Source: Clostridia bacterium
Lineage (GTDB): Bacteria; Bacillota_A; Clostridia; Oscillospirales; CAG-272
NCBI GenBank assembly: GCA_017529175.1
Contig: JAFXNX010000124.1
Location: forward strand, 1-8,124
Length of the DNA: 8,124 bases
Direction of reading: 5' to 3'
Under the pieces are notes generated by a model. It made no database searches, was not told where the DNA came from, and saw nothing but the letters and a program-made list of their open reading frames with translations. Position 1 is the stretch's first letter; every line of letters begins with the position of its first letter. Positions 1 to 8,124 of this stretch are shown here, in pieces. Position numbers and translations under genes: made by a program.

Positions 1-598
1 CGTACCATCTCTGCTGTTCCTCGGGAAGGTCGTGAACGACCGCTTCCTCAATGTGCGCGAGCGCGTGCTCGACAGGTCCCGAGAATGTATGCTGAGGAAC
101 GGTCTTTCCGTTCTTCGCGGCGCCGATAGCAGCTTCCGCCGCCTCCTCGACGCCGGTCCCCTTCAGAGCCGATATCTCGACGACCGGGCATCCGATCTGA
201 CGTGAAAGCTCCGCAAGGTTTATCTTGTCCCCTTCTTTTTTGACAAGGTCGATCATATTGATCGCGACTACCACCGGAATTCCGAGCTCCGTGAGCTGTG
301 TCGTCAGATAAAGGTTTCTCTCAAGGTTCGTACCGTCGACGATGTTGAGTATCGCGTCGGGACGCTCTCCTATAAGATAGTTTCTCGCGACGACCTCCTC
401 TAAAGTATAAGGAGAAAGAGAATATATACCGGGAAGGTCGGTTACGATCACGCCGTCGTGGCGCTTCAGTTTGCCTTCCTTCTTTTCCACCGTGACTCCC
501 GGCCAGTTGCCGACGAACTGATTCGAGCCGGTCAGCGCGTTGAACAGCGTCGTCTTACCGCTGTTCGGGTTGCCCGCAAGGGCTATCCTTATGTCCAT
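1..598 (-). CDS. feoB: Ferrous iron transport protein B, N-terminal G domain (partial, cut by left edge)
   Basis: FeoB is the inner-membrane Fe(II) permease; its cytosolic N-terminal GTPase domain is needed for uptake. About 199 residues are visible. The GTPase motifs are all present: G1 GNPNSGKT at residues 9-16, G2 threonine 36 in GVTVE, G3 DLPG at 54-57, G4 NMID at 114-117 and G5 SALKG at 143-147. The NWPGVTVEKKEG stretch is typical of FeoB rather than other small GTPases. The ATG at 598-596 has AAAGGAAG at 612-605, six bases upstream, which fixes the start. The sequence continues into the helical GDI-like segment and leaves the window before any membrane helix, so the permease part is inferred, not seen. 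It is the third gene of a feoA-feoA-feoB set, 72 bp after the second feoA, and a DtxR-type palindrome lies in that gap. Confidence 0.97.
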   Translation of the reverse strand, partial: MDIRIALAGNPNSGKTTLFNALTGSNQFVGNWPGVTVEKKEGKLKRHDGVIVTDLPGIYSLSPYTLEEVVARNYLIGERPDAILNIVDGTNLERNLYLTTQLTELGIPVVVAINMIDLVKKEGDKINLAELSRQIGCPVVEISALKGTGVEEAAEAAIGAAKNGKTVPQHTFSGPVEHALAHIEEAVVHDLPEEQQRWY

Positions 599-604
599 AA
601 TATG

Positions 605-612
605 CTTCCTTT
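605..612 (-). promoter_or_regulatory. Ribosome binding site of feoB
   Basis: Read on the minus strand this is AAAGGAAG, followed by six bases (CATATT) and the ATG of feoB. It supports ATG 598-596 as the start. Confidence 0.75.
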
Positions 613-630
613 CTGCTTTGATCCATTGAA

Positions 631-644
631 TTAGCATATGCTAA
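631..644. promoter_or_regulatory. DtxR-type operator box 1 (between feoA and feoB)
   Basis: TTAGCATATGCTAA is a perfect 14-bp palindrome of the form TTAG-N6-CTAA, identical to box 4 at 1214-1227. It lies 32 bp upstream of the feoB start and 26 bp after the feoA stop. This half-site arrangement resembles known DtxR/IdeR-family operators, and a DtxR-family gene is encoded nearby, so assignment to that regulator is a strong inference. No convincing -35/-10 pair accompanies this copy, so it may control a weak internal feoB promoter or act as a roadblock or accessory site. Confidence 0.75.
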
Positions 645-1330: not shown

Positions 1331-1705
1331 ATGACGATACGCGAATCGGGCGAAATGTATCTCGAAACGATATATATTCTTTCTCAAACCTCGTCGGAGG
1401 TACGCGCAATTGACGTCGGAGAATATATGGGTTACTCAAAACCGTCCGTCAGCCGCGCGCTCGGGATACTGAAAAAAGATTCCCTTATTGTGACTGACAG
1501 ATCCGGCTACATAAAGCTCACCGAAAAGGGAGAGGCGCAGGCAAAGAGTATTTACGAGCGCCACACCGTTCTGACAAGTCTTCTGATCAGACTCGGGGTG
1601 GACGAGAAAACCGCCGCCGAGGACGCCTGCCGCATCGAGCATTACATCAGCGATACGACTTTTGACGCGATAAAAGCGCATATGAAAAAATACGAAAAAA
1701 AATAA
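1331..1705 (+). CDS. DtxR-family metal-dependent transcriptional regulator, iron-type ligand set
   Basis: A 124-residue winged-helix repressor of the DtxR/MntR family, which binds DNA as a metal-loaded dimer. Residues 23-66 form the helix-turn-helix and wing, with the recognition helix around SKPSVSRALGIL (36-47); residues 70-121 are the dimerisation and metal-binding helices. Compared from memory with DtxR, Met9 (in GEMYLETIY) matches DtxR Met10, and Cys100, Glu103 and His104 (in EDACRIEHYISD) match Cys102, Glu105 and His106. MntR has Asp and Glu at the Met and Cys positions, so iron sensing is favoured. His78 matches the ancillary-site His79, but DtxR Glu83 and His98 appear as Thr82 and Ala96, so that site is probably altered. 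There is no C-terminal SH3-like domain. GGAGG at 1317-1321 sets the start. It is divergent from feo and probably represses it through the four boxes. Confidence 0.93.
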   Translation: MTIRESGEMYLETIYILSQTSSEVRAIDVGEYMGYSKPSVSRALGILKKDSLIVTDRSGYIKLTEKGEAQAKSIYERHTVLTSLLIRLGVDEKTAAEDACRIEHYISDTTFDAIKAHMKKYEKK

Positions 1706-3177
1706 TGAAAGAAAAGATCGAGAGTGTGTTTAACGCTATCGGAAGAGTGCTGGCATATTACGCGCTCCTTCCTTTCATCGCAAGCATTGCCGGCATACCG
1801 TTCTTTCTCGGCGCAATAGACGCTATTGTGATGCCGGTAGTGATAGTTTTTTTGTATATATGGCTCGATGAAAAGACTTATTCAAACATTCGCGCCGCGG
1901 CGATAATCAACCTTGTCTGCGCCACGGTCACAGCCGTCGGATTTGCGGCGCTTATGGTCATTAATTCGGGAGAAACGGACGGTGTTATCAGAGAAATTGC
2001 GACATACGCGCTATTCCCGTTCATTCTTGAAAATATCGCGACGTCTTTTACCTCCGGAGCGGAGCTTATCTTTATGTCCGCTTTTTTCACTTACACGGCA
2101 GGTTACATCACCTGCACGGTTTTAGCAAAAAAAGAGATAAAGTTAAGACACTGTATCGTTCCCGTCGTACTTTCCGTCGCCGCTGTCGCCGTCAGCATCT
2201 TTTCATACGCAAACAGACCGGAAGTCAGATACGCGGGACACGGATTTGATTTTATGCACGGTTACTCAAGCACCGACTTCACCGATTACACAGTTTACGC
2301 AGAGGGCTCAAAGCTCGTAAGCCCCGATACGCCGTCTTCTTTTATGATCGAAAACGAAAACGATATGCCAGTTATGGACGGAGCAGAGGCATGCTATCCT
2401 CTTTATTCTTCAATAGCAAAATCAGTATACAAAGATATAGAGAAGATAGAACGCGATTTTAAAGACAGTAATCCCAATTCCTATGTGAACGGAAAGATCG
2501 TTACGTTCACGAATACGTTGACCGGGTTCGACCGTTTGATATGCGGCGACGCAGATCTGTTCTTCGGCGCACGTGCGTCAAAAGATCAGCTTGAGGACGC
2601 ATCACGGAAAAGCGTCGAGCTTGAGATCACTAAGATAGGTAAGGAGGCGTTCATCTTCTTCGTCGAAGACAGCAATCCCGTTGACGGACTGACGAGCGAA
2701 CAGCTTCGAGCGATCTATCACGGAGATATCGAAAATTGGAGCAAGGTCGGCGGAGATGACGAAGATATAGTCGCTTTCCAGCGTCCGAAAAACTCCGGCT
2801 CGCAGACTATGATGGAATATTTTATGGGTGACGTCGCGCTAAAGGAGCCGAAAACATATGAGACCGTCGGAGGAATGGGAGGCGTCATCCGCGAAGTCGC
2901 ACAATACGCGAACGAGGACGGCGCGATCGGTTATTCTTTCCGGTATTTCGTTGAAGAACTGTCGCAGGAAAAAGGCGTGAAGCTTTTGAATATTGACGGG
3001 ATCCCGCCGACGGTCGAGAATATCGAGAACGGCACTTATCCGTTGACGGTAGATCTCTGTCTTATCACGAGAAAGAACGATCCGAATCCGTACGTTTCAA
3101 AGATGATCGAATTCGTCCTCTCCGATTCCGGGCAGGAAATAATAAGGAAGACGGGATACGGCGGACTGTCGAAATAA
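1705..3177 (+). CDS. Membrane-anchored PstS-like substrate-binding protein (about five TM helices plus PBP domain)
   Basis: A 490-residue two-part protein. Hydrophobic segments lie near residues 14-36, 38-54, 63-86, 118-141 and 149-168. With KEK at the N terminus, DEKTYSNIR at 55-63 and KKEIKLRH at 142-149 inside, five helices place the rest outside the cell; a sixth candidate at 98-113 is weaker. Residues about 222-490 resemble the PstS-type periplasmic binding superfamily (PBP_like_2): GAEACYPLYSSIAK, DLFFGAR, EAFIFFVEDSNPVDGLTSEQ, LRAIYHGDIENWSKVGG, FQRPKNSGSQT (359-368, in place of the PstS RxxGSGT loop) and DGAIGYSF. There is no signal peptidase II lipobox, unlike usual Gram-positive PstS. 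Its ATG overlaps the regulator stop (TAATG) and has no clear Shine-Dalgarno sequence, implying translational coupling. No pstCAB genes follow. The ligand is unknown: phosphate or another oxyanion is the family expectation, and a purely sensory role is possible. Confidence 0.82.
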   Translation: MKEKIESVFNAIGRVLAYYALLPFIASIAGIPFFLGAIDAIVMPVVIVFLYIWLDEKTYSNIRAAAIINLVCATVTAVGFAALMVINSGETDGVIREIATYALFPFILENIATSFTSGAELIFMSAFFTYTAGYITCTVLAKKEIKLRHCIVPVVLSVAAVAVSIFSYANRPEVRYAGHGFDFMHGYSSTDFTDYTVYAEGSKLVSPDTPSSFMIENENDMPVMDGAEACYPLYSSIAKSVYKDIEKIERDFKDSNPNSYVNGKIVTFTNTLTGFDRLICGDADLFFGARASKDQLEDASRKSVELEITKIGKEAFIFFVEDSNPVDGLTSEQLRAIYHGDIENWSKVGGDDEDIVAFQRPKNSGSQTMMEYFMGDVALKEPKTYETVGGMGGVIREVAQYANEDGAIGYSFRYFVEELSQEKGVKLLNIDGIPPTVENIENGTYPLTVDLCLITRKNDPNPYVSKMIEFVLSDSGQEIIRKTGYGGLSK

Positions 3178-3254: not shown

Positions 3255-4169
3255 ATGGAAAACGTAATTGAAATTGAGCATCTTTTCAAATCTTACGGCG
3301 AAGTCAAAGCGGTAAAAGATCTGTCTTTTATGGTAAAGCGCGGAGAACTCTTCGCTTTTCTCGGCGTAAACGGAGCGGGAAAGTCGACGACGATCTCAAT
3401 GATCTGCGGACAGCTTTGCCCCGACAGCGGCAAGATCACCGTATGCGGCGAGGACGTAGGACGAAACTTCGACGCGATCAGCCGCAGGATCGGCGTGGTG
3501 TTCCAAAGCTCCGCGCTCGACGCGCAGCTCTCGGCAAGAGACAATCTTCGCAGCCGCGCCGCGCTCTACGGCATAACCGGCAAAGAGTTTGCGAAACGCT
3601 TTGAGGAACTTTCAAAAATACTTGATTTCGCCGACTTCGCCGACCGCCCTCTCGCAAAGCTATCGGGCGGTCAGAAGCGCAGGATAGATATTGCTCGTGC
3701 ACTCGTCCACGAGCCGGAAATACTCATCCTCGACGAGCCGACGACGGGACTCGACCCGCAGACGAGAAAGCTTCTGTGGGACGTCGTGGAGTCGCTCCGC
3801 AAGGAAAAGAAGATGACAGTCTTCCTCACGACTCACTATATGGAAGAAGCGGCGGACGCAGACTACGTCGTGATCATCGACTGCGGAGAGATCGCGGCGG
3901 AGGGTTCTCCGCTCGAGCTGAAAAACAAATACGTCGGCGACTACGTGACGCTCTACGGAAAGAGCATAGAGGACGCGTCGCCCCTCGCGCTTCCGTGCGA
4001 AGCGATCCGCGACGCGGTGAGAGTGTCCGTTCCGAGCACGGCGGAGGTGACGAAGCTTATCGGAGCATATCCCGACCTGTTTACGGACTATGAAGTGACC
4101 AAAGGAAAGATGGACGACGTATTCCTTTCCGTCACCGGCAAAAATCTTCCTGGAGGCGGGCTGAAATGA
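3255..4169 (+). CDS. ABC exporter ATP-binding protein (drug/antibiotic-type, DrrA-like)
   Basis: The 304-residue cytosolic ATPase of an ABC-2-type exporter, powering the permease encoded next to it. All ATPase motifs are intact: Walker A GVNGAGKST (37-45), Q-loop Gln84, signature LSGGQ (136-140), Walker B ILILD with catalytic Glu161 (EPTTGLD), and the H-loop His194 in TTH. LSGGQKRRIDIARAL and TTHYMEEAADAD are typical of the DrrA/CcmA-like multidrug group. The C-terminal part (about 218-304) carries the extension common in this group and ends with a DDVFLSVTGKNL motif. GAGG at 3244-3247, seven bases before the ATG, supports the start. It lies 77 bp after the PBP gene with no promoter seen between, so co-transcription with the regulator is likely. 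The substrate cannot be read from the sequence. Confidence 0.95.
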   Translation: MENVIEIEHLFKSYGEVKAVKDLSFMVKRGELFAFLGVNGAGKSTTISMICGQLCPDSGKITVCGEDVGRNFDAISRRIGVVFQSSALDAQLSARDNLRSRAALYGITGKEFAKRFEELSKILDFADFADRPLAKLSGGQKRRIDIARALVHEPEILILDEPTTGLDPQTRKLLWDVVESLRKEKKMTVFLTTHYMEEAADADYVVIIDCGEIAAEGSPLELKNKYVGDYVTLYGKSIEDASPLALPCEAIRDAVRVSVPSTAEVTKLIGAYPDLFTDYEVTKGKMDDVFLSVTGKNLPGGGLK

Positions 4170-5065
4170 AAACTCTTGTTAACGTTATACGCAGAAACTT
4201 AAAGCTCTTTTTCAAGGATCGCGGGATGTTCTTCTCATCGCTCATCACTCCGATGATCCTGCTCGTGCTGTACGCTACCTTTCTTGCAAAGCTGTACCGT
4301 GAGAGCTTCGCGTCAGCTCTTCCCGAAGGAGTCATGATCCCGGACACGCTCCTTGACGGAACGGTAGTCAGCCAACTGATCTCCGCGCTCCTTGCGGTCT
4401 CGTGCGTCACGGTGTCGTTCTGCGCGAACCTTCTTATGATCCAGGACAAGGCAAACGGCTCCATCCGCGATTTCACGGTGACGCCGGTGAAACGTTCGAC
4501 TCTTGCGGCGGGCTTCTATATCGCTTCCGCGGCGAGCACGCTGATCGTGACGTTTTCGGCACTTGCCGTTTGTCTTCTCTACCTCTCTACCCAGGGGTGG
4601 TATATGTCAGTCGCCGACGTCGCGCTCGTCGCGCTCGACGTCTTCCTGCTTACTCTCTTCGGAACGGCGCTCTCATCGTGCGTCAACTTCTTCTTAACGA
4701 CCAACGGGCAGGCGTCCGCGGTCGGAACGATAATCAGCGCGGGCTACGGTTTTATATGCGGAGCGTATATGCCGATCGCAAGCTTCGGCGAGGGACTTCA
4801 AAAAGTTCTCTCTTTCCTTCCGGGTACTTACGGAACGTGCCTTATCAAGTGCCACATGATGCGCGGCGTATTCAACGAAATGGAAAACTTCGGCTTCCCC
4901 GCGGAAGTGATGAAGGGTATAAAGGACAGCGTCGACTACAATATTTATTTCTTCGGAAACTCCGTACCAGTTCCCATTATGTACGCGATCCTCGCGGGAG
5001 CGGTCCTTCTCTTCACCGCTCTGTTCGTTCTCTTCCACGTTATAAAGGGAAAAAGGCATAAGTAA
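4166..5065 (+). CDS. ABC-2 type exporter permease
   Basis: A 299-residue integral membrane protein, partner of the preceding ATPase. Six hydrophobic segments are visible near residues 22-42, 68-91, 115-139, 147-172, 183-205 and 268-292, the usual ABC-2 permease layout. The N-terminal RRNLKLFFKDRGMFFSSLITPMIL is the typical amphipathic lead-in with positive charges inside. The loop QDKANGSIRDFTVTPVKRSTL (93-113) matches the cytosolic coupling segment, and GAYMPIASFGEGLQKVLSFLPGTYGTCLIK (199-228) is the conserved region after helix five. Its ATG overlaps the ATPase stop by four bases (ATGA), with GGAGG at 4152-4156 upstream, so the two are translated together. Length and order fit DrrB-like exporters of lipophilic compounds or peptides, but a heme or lipid substrate cannot be excluded. 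Confidence 0.93.
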   Translation: MKTLVNVIRRNLKLFFKDRGMFFSSLITPMILLVLYATFLAKLYRESFASALPEGVMIPDTLLDGTVVSQLISALLAVSCVTVSFCANLLMIQDKANGSIRDFTVTPVKRSTLAAGFYIASAASTLIVTFSALAVCLLYLSTQGWYMSVADVALVALDVFLLTLFGTALSSCVNFFLTTNGQASAVGTIISAGYGFICGAYMPIASFGEGLQKVLSFLPGTYGTCLIKCHMMRGVFNEMENFGFPAEVMKGIKDSVDYNIYFFGNSVPVPIMYAILAGAVLLFTALFVLFHVIKGKRHK

Positions 5066-5238: not shown

Positions 5239-8124
5239 TTATTTCATAAGCTCCGCAAGTGTTGCGTAGATCTTTTCGGGCTCGATCGGCTTTGAGAGGT
5301 GAGCGTTCATTCCCGCCGCAAGCGAGCGTTCGACGTCTTCGTCGAAAACGTTCGCGGTCATCGCGATTATCGGTATCGTCTTAGCGTCCGCTCTGTCAAG
5401 CGCTCTTATCGCCTCTGTGGCGGAAAGTCCGTCCATTACGGGCATTCTGACGTCCATAATGATCGCGTCGTAATACCCCGTCTCGCTTGCGGTGAACATA
5501 TAGAGCGCCTCTTGACCGTTGCTCGCTCGCTCCGATATGACGTCTTCAAGCTCGAGCAGGTCTGCGAGGATCTCGGCGTTCGCGTCGACGTCCTCCGCCA
5601 TGAGCACCCGGCGTCCCGAAAGGATGGAGTCCGTCTTATCCGCAATATCCGCGTCTTCGGAAACGTCCTGTCTGATTCCCGCTTTGCCTTCCAGAACAGC
5701 GTGGATCGTACGGAGAAGGCTGTCCGTAAACAGCGGCTTTGCGATAATGCTGTCAACGCCGCCCTCTCTCGCCTCTTCATCTATGATGTCCCAGTTGTAA
5801 CCGGTAAGCATGATTATCGCGGTTTCCCCGCCGTCAAATCCGCGCACCGCGCGTGAGAGCTCGAGGCCGTTCATTTCCGGCATCTTATAGTCCGTGAGAA
5901 GAAGATTATAAGCATTCCCGCTCTCCTTCGCTCTTCTCAACATACCGAGCGCTTCATTTGCGGAAGTTACGGTATCGGACGCGACGCCCATCGCGTTCAG
6001 GACGAAATACGCGTGCTCACACGCCACCTCATCGTCATCGACGACAAGCGCGCGAAGCCCCTCGGGCAGCGCAAGACCGTTTTCATCTTTATAACTGCGC
6101 TCGGACGATTTGAGTTTTACCGTCACGACAAACGTCGAGCCGACTCCCTTTTCGCTTTCGACTTCGATACTTCCGCCCATCAATTCGACGAAATTCTTAG
6201 TTATCGCCATTCCGAGTCCGCTTCCGCCGTAGCGGTTCGTTGTCGTTGCGTCCTCTTGCGAGAACGCCTCAAAGATCTTCGGTATGTATTCCTTGTCCAT
6301 ACCGATACCGGTATCCTTGATCGTGAAGCGTATGGTGCTGACGCCGTCCGCCTCGTCGAGCTGCTTAATGCTCAGCGTGACCTCTCCCGGCGCACCTGTG
6401 AATTTAACCGAGTTGCCGAGTATATTGATGAGCACCTGTTTGAGTTTAAGGTCGTCGCCGACATAATAATCGTTTATATGACCTTCGATATTGCACTCGT
6501 AGTGCAGACCTTTATCAAAACACTGACCGTTTATGATGATACTTACCTGGTCTATCAGTTCGCGGAATGAAAATACTTCATTCTTGAGGACCATTCTGCC
6601 CGATTCAATACGGCTCATATCGAGTATATCGTTTATAAGTCCGAGCAAAAGTTTTGCGCTCGATCCGATCTTTTCGAGCTGTTCTTTCGTCTTCGGGGAG
6701 AGATCAGGATCGCGAAGCGCTATATTGTCAAGACCGATGATAGCGTTCATCGGCGTTCTTATCTCATGGCTCATGTTGGATAAGAAGCTCGTTTTAGCGC
6801 GGCTGCTCTCCTCGGCGAGCGCCTTCTCGACTTCGATCAACTTTTCGCGTTTCTGTATCCGCGAGTAAATGACGAACAGGGCGATCAGAGTCGCGACGAT
6901 CAGGACGATTTGTATCGTCGACGCGAGAGAGAGCGAGCGGTCGACCTTGTCGAGAGTATTCTGAAGATACTCATGTTGCGCCGCCTCCGCTTCGGACGCG
7001 GCGTCAGCTCCAGACTCTTCAAGCACTCCGTCATAGTAGGTCTGTATATCCCCGACCGAGTTGTCGACGGAAGACTCCGTAGTCTGTCTCATCCACACGG
7101 AAGACGTGAAGATGATGACCGCGAGCATAACGATGAGCGCGACGTTGGAACGGCCGAGCCTTCTTTTTTTATCTTTGCGGAGCAAATATTCGAAAACGAT
7201 GAATCCGAGAAGTCCCCACGCGGCGAGGATAAGATACGATTCCGTCGCGAGCGTCTTTACGGATATAAGGTTAGGTATAAGGAACGCGAAACCGAAGAAC
7301 GTTGAGACGATCAGCCCGAAGGCGCCGATCGCTCTCGCGCGTTTGTTCCCGTCAAGTCTTGCCGTCCTAAGCGTCGCGGCGGACGTGAACGCGAACGCGA
7401 TCGTCGCGCCGACGGTCGTCACGTCGACGATCCAGCCGATAGCCGTTCTTCCGAAGAACGGAAGGATGACGGATACCGCAAGGATCGCGATTATCGCGTT
7501 TTTCGGAACGTTGTTTCGGTCGAGCTTTCCGATCTTTCCGGAGAGCAGTCCGTCGTCGGACATCGTGGTAAGGAGTCTGCTGAGCGCTATATAGTTGCCG
7601 ATGATGCCGGTGAATATAGCTCCGAGCGCCGCGACTCCGAGTATCGCCGATCCGGCAGTACCGAGCGCGGAGAACGCAGAATTGAACGTCGGAGCGCCGG
7701 CGACGCCGGAATAGCTGTCAAGGTTGTTAATATAATCCGTCCACGACGACGCGCCTTCCGGAAGCGCCGTGACGGCGGAAAGCGAAAGAAAGCTGTAGGC
7801 GATGCCCGCCGCAAGGAGAGCGAGCGCCATAATACCGAAAGAGCGTTTCAGCGGGAACTTCGCTTCTCCCGAGGAATGGGATATGGACTCGAATCCGACG
7901 AACGCCCACGGCGCCAGCACGAATATCGTGAAAGTTCCTCCCACAGGCGTGTTATCGGGCGAGAACGCGGGGGAAAGGATCTCCGATCCGCCGTTGTTTA
8001 CCGCCGCGGCGATAAAGCAGATCACGACTCCGCAGAAAAGAAGGAGCGCCATAACGATCTGAACGGTCGAGCCGAGACGGCGGCGCAGACATACGAGCGC
8101 GCCGATTACGAGCGCCGCGATGAC
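5239..8124 (-). CDS. APC-family amino-acid permease fused to hybrid histidine kinase with two receiver domains (partial, 5' end beyond right edge)
   Basis: The frame is open to the right edge (961 residues visible; the 24 before Met at 8052 are also membrane-like), so the true start lies outside. Numbering from that Met: residues 1-291 hold the later helices of an APC-superfamily permease, with the TM6-type signature PWAFVGFESISHSSGEAKFP (48-67) and helices near 1-18, 40-58, 72-95, 128-158, 184-225, 240-262 and 270-291. Helices at 303-320 and 378-396 flank a short, Ala/Glu-rich outside loop. The kinase follows without HAMP or PAS: H-box SHEIRTPMN with His429, N-box Asn547, G1 DTGIGM (580-585), G2 GGSGLGMAI (609-617). 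Receiver 1 has Asp721, Thr750, Lys772; receiver 2 has Asp867, Thr899, Lys921. All phosphotransfer residues are intact. It probably couples amino-acid (or amine) transport or binding to phosphorelay signalling. No Hpt domain is visible. Confidence 0.93.
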   Translation of the reverse strand, partial: VIAALVIGALVCLRRRLGSTVQIVMALLLFCGVVICFIAAAVNNGGSEILSPAFSPDNTPVGGTFTIFVLAPWAFVGFESISHSSGEAKFPLKRSFGIMALALLAAGIAYSFLSLSAVTALPEGASSWTDYINNLDSYSGVAGAPTFNSAFSALGTAGSAILGVAALGAIFTGIIGNYIALSRLLTTMSDDGLLSGKIGKLDRNNVPKNAIIAILAVSVILPFFGRTAIGWIVDVTTVGATIAFAFTSAATLRTARLDGNKRARAIGAFGLIVSTFFGFAFLIPNLISVKTLATESYLILAAWGLLGFIVFEYLLRKDKKRRLGRSNVALIVMLAVIIFTSSVWMRQTTESSVDNSVGDIQTYYDGVLEESGADAASEAEAAQHEYLQNTLDKVDRSLSLASTIQIVLIVATLIALFVIYSRIQKREKLIEVEKALAEESSRAKTSFLSNMSHEIRTPMNAIIGLDNIALRDPDLSPKTKEQLEKIGSSAKLLLGLINDILDMSRIESGRMVLKNEVFSFRELIDQVSIIINGQCFDKGLHYECNIEGHINDYYVGDDLKLKQVLINILGNSVKFTGAPGEVTLSIKQLDEADGVSTIRFTIKDTGIGMDKEYIPKIFEAFSQEDATTTNRYGGSGLGMAITKNFVELMGGSIEVESEKGVGSTFVVTVKLKSSERSYKDENGLALPEGLRALVVDDDEVACEHAYFVLNAMGVASDTVTSANEALGMLRRAKESGNAYNLLLTDYKMPEMNGLELSRAVRGFDGGETAIIMLTGYNWDIIDEEAREGGVDSIIAKPLFTDSLLRTIHAVLEGKAGIRQDVSEDADIADKTDSILSGRRVLMAEDVDANAEILADLLELEDVISERASNGQEALYMFTASETGYYDAIIMDVRMPVMDGLSATEAIRALDRADAKTIPIIAMTANVFDEDVERSLAAGMNAHLSKPIEPEKIYATLAELMK

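Follow-up and report, generated by a model that had tools for sequence, protein, structure and literature searches.

The window analysed here, a stretch of 8,124 nucleotides from a Clostridia bacterium (contig JAFXNX010000124.1), encodes in a single chain an APC permease, a two-helix module, a histidine kinase core and two receivers, REC1 and REC2. We favour, with a probability of about 0.63, the view that this protein senses a small amine or amino acid through a transporter-derived domain and drives an HPt phosphorelay to a phosphodiesterase of cyclic di-GMP (c-di-GMP). This membrane sensor kinase would have an APC amino-acid permease, put to a new use, as its input domain. The ligand, a small solute and most probably an amine or amino acid, would bind the old transport site between transmembrane helices (TM) TM1/TM6 and TM3/TM8, and the movement of the permease would pass through TM12 and a hairpin (TM13, outside loop, TM14) to a continuous helix entering the kinase dimer. 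The kinase would autophosphorylate, and the phosphate would pass by way of REC2, and next a separate HPt protein whose gene lies just upstream, to a REC-GGDEF(degenerate)-EAL response regulator, altering c-di-GMP breakdown. REC1 would be an accessory receiver, with which some relatives dispense.

Permease, kinase and receivers in one frame

The frame, on the minus strand (Table 1), has 961 stop-free codons and is still open at the contig end. When aligned with the full-length relative P0002, it starts at about residue 151, with TM5-12 present and TM1-4 beyond the contig end. Pfam identified AA_permease at residues 24-297 (41.6 bits for a cut-off of 24.6), HisKA at residues 443-509 (64.9 bits), HATPase_c at residues 556-672 (102.3 bits), and two stretches of Response_reg (132.5 for the whole protein), the last three families also scoring above their cut-offs. 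The best matches in NCBIfam, all below cut-off, were to hybrid kinases such as TorS, BarA, and ArcB. The phospho-accepting His, the Asn of the N-box, the Asp and Gly of G1, the Gly of G2, and the Asp/Thr/Lys of both receivers are all kept (11 of the 11 catalytic positions checked), and the protein is thus a hybrid histidine kinase by its HisKA His, its N and G boxes, and its receiver residues.

Table 1. Parts of the fusion gene in the window
Feature	Position	Strand	Basis
APC permease (TM5-12), two-helix module, HisKA, HATPase_c, REC1 and REC2 in one frame; 5' end cut by contig	5239..8124	-	
APC permease part, TM5 to TM12, residues 1-317	7174..8124	-	PF00324, alignment to P0002, fold of P0002
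TM6 unwound-helix motif APWAFVGFESISHSSGEAKFP with fused-only Glu and His	7852..7914	-	
TM13, first helix of the two-helix module common to fused forms examined	7084..7155	-	
Loop of 56 residues, predicted outside the membrane, poorly conserved	6916..7083	-	
TM14; in the P0002 model one long helix continuing into the kinase dimerisation domain	6859..6915	-	
HisKA, phospho-acceptor His at residue 453	6598..6798	-	
HATPase_c with N, G1 and G2 boxes	6109..6459	-	
REC1, Asp/Thr/Lys intact, limits approximate; missing in 20/68 complete relatives	5695..6057	-	
REC2, Asp/Thr/Lys intact; found in 68/68 complete relatives	5257..5607	-	

To search for relatives in bacterial genomes we used a permease-only alignment, which gave 390 confirmed relatives, of which the best 80 were kept for locus counts. 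Sixty-eight of these were readable from the permease to the stop codon, the other 12 being cut by a contig end, and all 68 encode DHp, CA, and REC2 within one uninterrupted frame. REC1, counted with a probe barred from matching REC2, is present in 48 and missing in 20. A protein search revealed, besides the window protein, 119 proteins among the matches listed that are 63-71% identical and in which Pfam finds permease, HisKA, HATPase, and receiver domains on a single chain. Ordinary kinases are to be expected among the 7,442 matches overall, and this number does not give the size of the family. We regard the in-frame fusion of an APC permease to a hybrid kinase as real, with practically no doubt. 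The first-pass annotation had described such an uninterrupted frame, with a TM6-type signature, an extra two-helix module with an outside loop of roughly 57 residues (56 in our analysis), and an intact HisKA/HATPase core, all of which we recovered, and the profile match supports its placement of the N-terminal helices in the APC superfamily. It had named late permease helices, when there are eight, and its tandem receivers are both intact in the window but REC1 is not universal. The operon partners and the second-messenger outputs described below, which were not visible to it, alter the picture most.

The best 80 loci are from Bacillota (76) and Actinomycetota (4), and the largest named family is Lachnospiraceae (30). 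According to their titles, 64 have RUG/RGIG identifiers or come from rumen, deer, or sheep samples, 12 are SRR-binned, and 4 are of other sources; one, Lachnospiraceae bacterium AC2029 (L071), has a title that reads as a cultured strain. Matches were rare when whole genomes were sampled. At E up to 1e-40 they occurred in 15 of 398 genomes from the phylum of genome G001; at E up to 1e-50, they occurred in 13 of 391 from its class and in 7 of 150 from the class of G362. The centre genome is part of every count, stand-alone permeases are part of the first two, and G868, a genome with broken pieces only, is part of the third. Five of the seven source-named relatives among the matches listed are called plain 'amino acid permease', and APC-kinase proteins may thus be counted as transporters in metabolic models. 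One contig (L062 and L063) encodes two different APC-hybrid-kinase genes plus one APC-GGDEF gene.

One input unit with several outputs

The input unit is found with at least five kinds of signalling end: GGDEF, GGDEF-REC-GGDEF-EAL, HD-GYP, a hybrid kinase, and a kinase that lacks receivers and is encoded next to a CheB gene. The permeases with other ends are 34-51% identical to that of P0002 and are found beside several kinase operons and elsewhere. They include fusions to GGDEF (L004, L036, L064, L132, L139, L140), to GGDEF-REC-GGDEF-EAL (L003, L058, L098), and to HD-GYP (L133, L135, with an HD_5 domain and the motifs HD-x-GK and HHE-GYP), as well as one-receiver kinases (L093, L134) and receiver-less kinases, encoded by tandem gene pairs that follow a CheB-methylesterase gene (L091, L092, and, matched by BLAST only, L141 and L142). 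In the receiver-less kinases HisKA is weak or unlisted in Pfam and one HATPase_c is below cut-off, as is the receiver of the CheB protein of L091. TM12 is followed by two hydrophobic stretches in each of the 34 fused forms that lie outside the close kinase set, and the residues that lead into these are nearly constant among 55 fused rows (Asp469 in 54, Gly475 in 54, Trp495 in 55, P0002 numbering). The permease and the hairpin are thus inherited as one unit.

Some observations on individual loci accompany these counts. The CheB methylesterase domain is in the next gene upstream of L091, L141, and L142, and a like gene was seen by eye at L092. Likely chemoreceptor genes were found near L141 (three) and L142 (two), by eye only, their domain composition being unprobed. 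The APC-GGDEF gene at L035:17740-20100 is apparently damaged at its 3' end, since only the first half of GGDEF (residues 586-655) was matched by Pfam.

In the tree of 56 permease domains, built from eight random rows of the close kinase set and the other rows in hand, a single branch (length 1.08, support 100/100) separates 41 fused from 15 stand-alone rows, and the fused forms make one clade. An earlier tree of 42 rows gave the same split. We left out L062 (an identical row of 750 residues), the stop-broken L089 and L106, the short frame L090, the pieces from G868, five weaker stand-alone matches, and the window itself, which lacks helices 1-4. When the five outputs and the stand-alone state were mapped as six labels, the tree required 8 changes, for a mean of 34.1 with shuffled labels. 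The HD-GYP ends are in two separate places, and the GGDEF and the receiver-bearing kinase ends are each in more than one place. Because the root was placed at the midpoint, the direction of change, from transporter to sensor, is suggested by the wide distribution of plain APC permeases and not by the tree itself. We give even odds to a more general scenario, in which a sensory module of single origin, with a two-helix adaptor and at least five outputs, acts as a non-transporting receptor wiring a nutrient amine to c-di-GMP in gut anaerobes.

TM3 and TM6 line the substrate site of LeuT-fold transporters, and both have residues typical of the fused forms. In TM6 (positions 230-234), Glu230 is found in 55 of 55 fused rows, in place of Asp in 10 of 11 stand-alone rows, and His234 in 51 of 55, in place of Gln in 11 of 11. 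Both are invariant in the 118 close relatives, and the window carries both. In TM3 (positions 112-113), Trp112 is found in 54 and Ala113 in all 55 fused rows. Asp94 is likewise common to all 55. Passages of PMC12958826 name TM1 and TM6 as lining the substrate site. We rejected the GWG of TM1 as a mark of sensors because stand-alone permeases also have GWG or GFG.

These residues bear on whether the protein could be a true transceptor, whose APC domain still transports and in which, as has been suggested for CbrA, the kinase is driven by transport turnover. We find this unlikely: Glu and His replacing Asp and Gln in TM6 are fixed in the close relatives, even if conservation of the APC core is strong, in the TM1 GWG and the TM6 segments among others, and even if histidine transport is reported for CbrA, which is also a LeuT-fold fusion (PMC7918813, in part). 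A lysine in TM5, essential in MjApcT, GkApcT, and HutT and equivalent to Lys196 of CbrA according to passages of PMC13022988, would seem informative. Taking the register of GkApcT from an alignment with a gap nearby, we found no Lys or Arg at positions 173-189 in any of the 118 close relatives, and in the broader fused set an Arg in 2 of 55 rows, at position 172 only. This argues weakly against transport, since none of the 11 stand-alone permeases has a counterpart either, and we therefore rejected the loss of this lysine as a decisive mark of lost transport. Whether the fused permease is non-transporting seems to us about evenly balanced.

The partner operon and the proposed route of the signal

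In the relatives, the gene order is REC-GGDEF(degenerate)-EAL, HPt, and then APC-kinase. The HPt gene has about 122 codons (Pfam Hpt in both representatives scanned), and the regulator gene upstream of it about 567 (two scanned by Pfam). We counted both with tblastn, because the calling of open reading frames (ORFs) sometimes picked an antisense frame. Where at least 500 bp of upstream sequence is available, HPt was found in 74 of 76 loci; where there is at least 2,400 bp, the regulator was found in 54 of 66. Two of the 12 loci without the regulator (L040, L062) also lack HPt. In called ORFs, taken from their first start codons, HPt and kinase overlap or lie at most 60 bp apart in 42 of 56 pairs; a further 13 pairs have gaps of 67 to 448 bp, and a single pair has one of 3,466 bp. 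The gap between regulator and HPt ranges from -26 to 108 bp (33 pairs). The HxxKG motif is present in all 56 HPt ORFs of the BLAST cluster. Among 50 full-length regulators, the receiver Asp and the checked EAL positions are invariant, and none keeps the GGDEF motif, the commonest string being RFEADRF. This retention of EAL and loss of GGDEF suggest that the partner is a c-di-GMP phosphodiesterase. REC2 would be the relay receiver and REC1 an accessory, as the former is universal among complete loci and the latter is not. A relay from the kinase to the neighbouring HPt and regulator is likely.

Alternatively, the kinase might not serve c-di-GMP, the HPt and REC-GGDEF-EAL proteins forming a separate system and the target being a distant transcription factor. 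The 12 of 66 loci where the regulator gene is not nearby are in line with this, as is one such genome with 63 query matches, many of which are other kinases and receivers. We consider it quite unlikely given the close and nearly constant adjacency of HPt to the fusion gene and given that sister fusions carry GGDEF, EAL, or HD-GYP enzymes directly on the same APC unit. At one further locus (L130:5574-11256, plus strand), genes for a REC and EAL protein, an HPt, a GGDEF protein, and an APC-GGDEF protein are in a row, with no kinase between.

The complete 12-helix APC domain, of which the window lacks the first four helices, was seen in the full-length relative P0002, which has a LeuT-type fold; AA_permease_2 is also matched in the fused relatives scanned by Pfam. 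Over the 118 rows, mean entropy is low in the transport core (0.46 bits in TM1, 0.51 in TM3, 0.59 in TM6, and 0.60 in TM10), in TM13 (0.58), and in the signal helix (0.48). It is higher in TM5 (1.55), TM14 (1.54), and the permease loop 5-6 (2.28), and reaches 2.31 bits in the outside loop, a value exceeded only by the N-terminal tail (3.16) and the REC1-REC2 linker (2.45). Constraint on the core, TM13, and the signal helix rather than on the loop makes the permease a better candidate than the loop for the site of sensing. One could still view the permease as a mere membrane anchor and the loop as the sensor, as in ordinary two-TM kinases, because TM13, loop, and TM14 are laid out like a small extracytoplasmic sensor and TM13 keeps its Trp and the Asp/Gly motif at its entry in the fused forms examined. 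We judge this improbable: beyond its low conservation, the loop is of uneven length, with short versions in the receiver-less kinases and one HD form, whereas every sampled output comes with the permease core. That the transporter is the sensing domain, as the first-pass annotation had suggested, thus gains indirect support from a unit swapped onto other outputs and from a core far more conserved than the loop, and we hold the use of the permease as a sensor to be very likely. A chimeric assembly or a chance read-through between an ordinary permease and an ordinary kinase gene, conceivable on a short contig whose end interrupts the gene, can be dismissed because the same one-chain fusion recurs in the 119 proteins among the matches listed and in all 68 complete loci, including that of AC2029.

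The stand-alone relatives provide a lead to the ligand, as they lie beside genes for amine or amino-acid breakdown in three of the six genomes with fetched context. In L095 the neighbours encode a sulfoacetaldehyde acetyltransferase and a protein of the aminotransferase family, in L097 an alanine dehydrogenase and an aminotransferase, and in L136 a lysine 5,6-aminomutase. Of the other three genomes, L096 has an aldehyde dehydrogenase, and nothing clear was seen by eye at L094 and L099. The ligands of the fused forms are likely to be amines or amino acids; as the substrates of the neighbouring genes differ, we claim no single one. For taurine, the matches listed held nothing decisive.

Several points weigh against the sensor-relay scenario we prefer. 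The fused-only residues were defined from 11 stand-alone sequences in six genomes. The full-length P0002 model is moderate (pLDDT 75.5, pTM 0.54) and weak around DHp, so that the helix into the kinase is proposed tentatively. Loops commonly vary more than helices, which makes the conservation contrast suggestive. The upstream genes of the window, if present, lie beyond the contig end, and we thus infer from the relatives that its genome would carry both. Finally, the loci without a nearby regulator, and the 2 of 76 without HPt, imply that the output may sometimes differ or act at a distance.

Known systems and neighbouring genes

Fusions of transporters to kinases are already known (CbrA and CrbS with SSS, Ks-Amt5 with Amt, and the S-component receptors), as is the permease-like receptor Ssy1 of yeast. 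Few transporter-kinase fusions have been studied. CbrA and CrbS/MxtR resemble the window protein in having a LeuT-fold transporter and a histidine kinase in one chain, and MxtR/CrbS also has a receiver (PMC7918813, in part). They differ in their SSS/SLC5 transporter with 13 TM, their STAC and PAS linkers, and their transcriptional-regulator partner, whereas the family of the window has an APC domain, 12+2 TM, a direct helix in the model, and HPt and EAL partners. Pfam found no SSF family in the window protein or the scanned fused relatives, only AA_permease families, and STAC was not among the matches (the Pfam copy may hold no STAC model), the linker being a helix hairpin in the models. The available part of the same 2021 review reports that a first look revealed no SSS-HisKA proteins in Gram-positive bacteria, and describes as enigmatic both what stimulates the SSS kinases and what their transporter domain does (PMC7918813).

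The best solved sequence relatives are APC permeases of the CAT and GkApcT branches (CAT4, 9sqh, E 3e-16, then CAT1, followed by xCT-type and GkApcT chains), which to our knowledge are transporters without a fused signalling end. MASE-type membrane sensor domains are used with GGDEF, EAL, and kinase outputs; we know of none with a LeuT fold, nor of receivers or a set of swapped outputs in the ammonium sensor kinase Ks-Amt5. The latter is similar in using an uptake-transporter module as a sensor, joined without PAS, HAMP, or STAC (PMC5764959, in part), but has the Amt/Rh fold. The S-component-fold receptors (5TMR-SHK) also place a transporter-like membrane fold on sensor kinases, receivers, and other outputs (PMC11109136, in part), with another fold of five helices. 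Ssy1, of the yeast SPS sensor, is a permease-like receptor of an amino-acid-transporter family in which transport is undetectable (passages of PMC12958826); it is eukaryotic, signals via a protease complex, and lacks a kinase fusion. If the fused APC domain is indeed a non-transporting receptor, it would be a bacterial counterpart of Ssy1.

Among the open-licence literature matches listed (titles and abstract starts), we found no description of a kinase or GGDEF joined to an APC or amino-acid permease, of an HPt/EAL operon of an APC-kinase, or of a set of swapped outputs. One candidate, PMC3673472, names AA_permease_2, HisKA, and HATPase_c, but in the part available as domains found with universal stress proteins and not as such a fusion. 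The family is a second LeuT-fold line with well over 100 natural variants, a near-constant partner gene, and stand-alone permeases for comparison, which makes the conversion of a transporter into a receptor testable by swapping a few fused-only residues and outputs. It suggests that in rumen and gut bacteria the APC fold was turned from a transporter into a reusable sensor for an internal messenger pathway.

The window carries other genes as well. An ABC exporter pair (3255-5065, plus strand), with a below-cut-off resemblance to DrrA/DrrB, is convergent with the fusion gene and thus outside its operon. A DtxR/MntR-like regulator gene (1331-1705, plus strand) is divergent from the feoB start (2-637, minus strand), possibly as a metal-regulated pair. 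Another gene (1705-3177, plus strand) encodes a protein of 490 residues that has, by eye, a hydrophobic N-terminus of about 170 residues, followed by a PstS-like PBP_like_2 domain, an unusual membrane-tethered form of a phosphate-binding-type protein.
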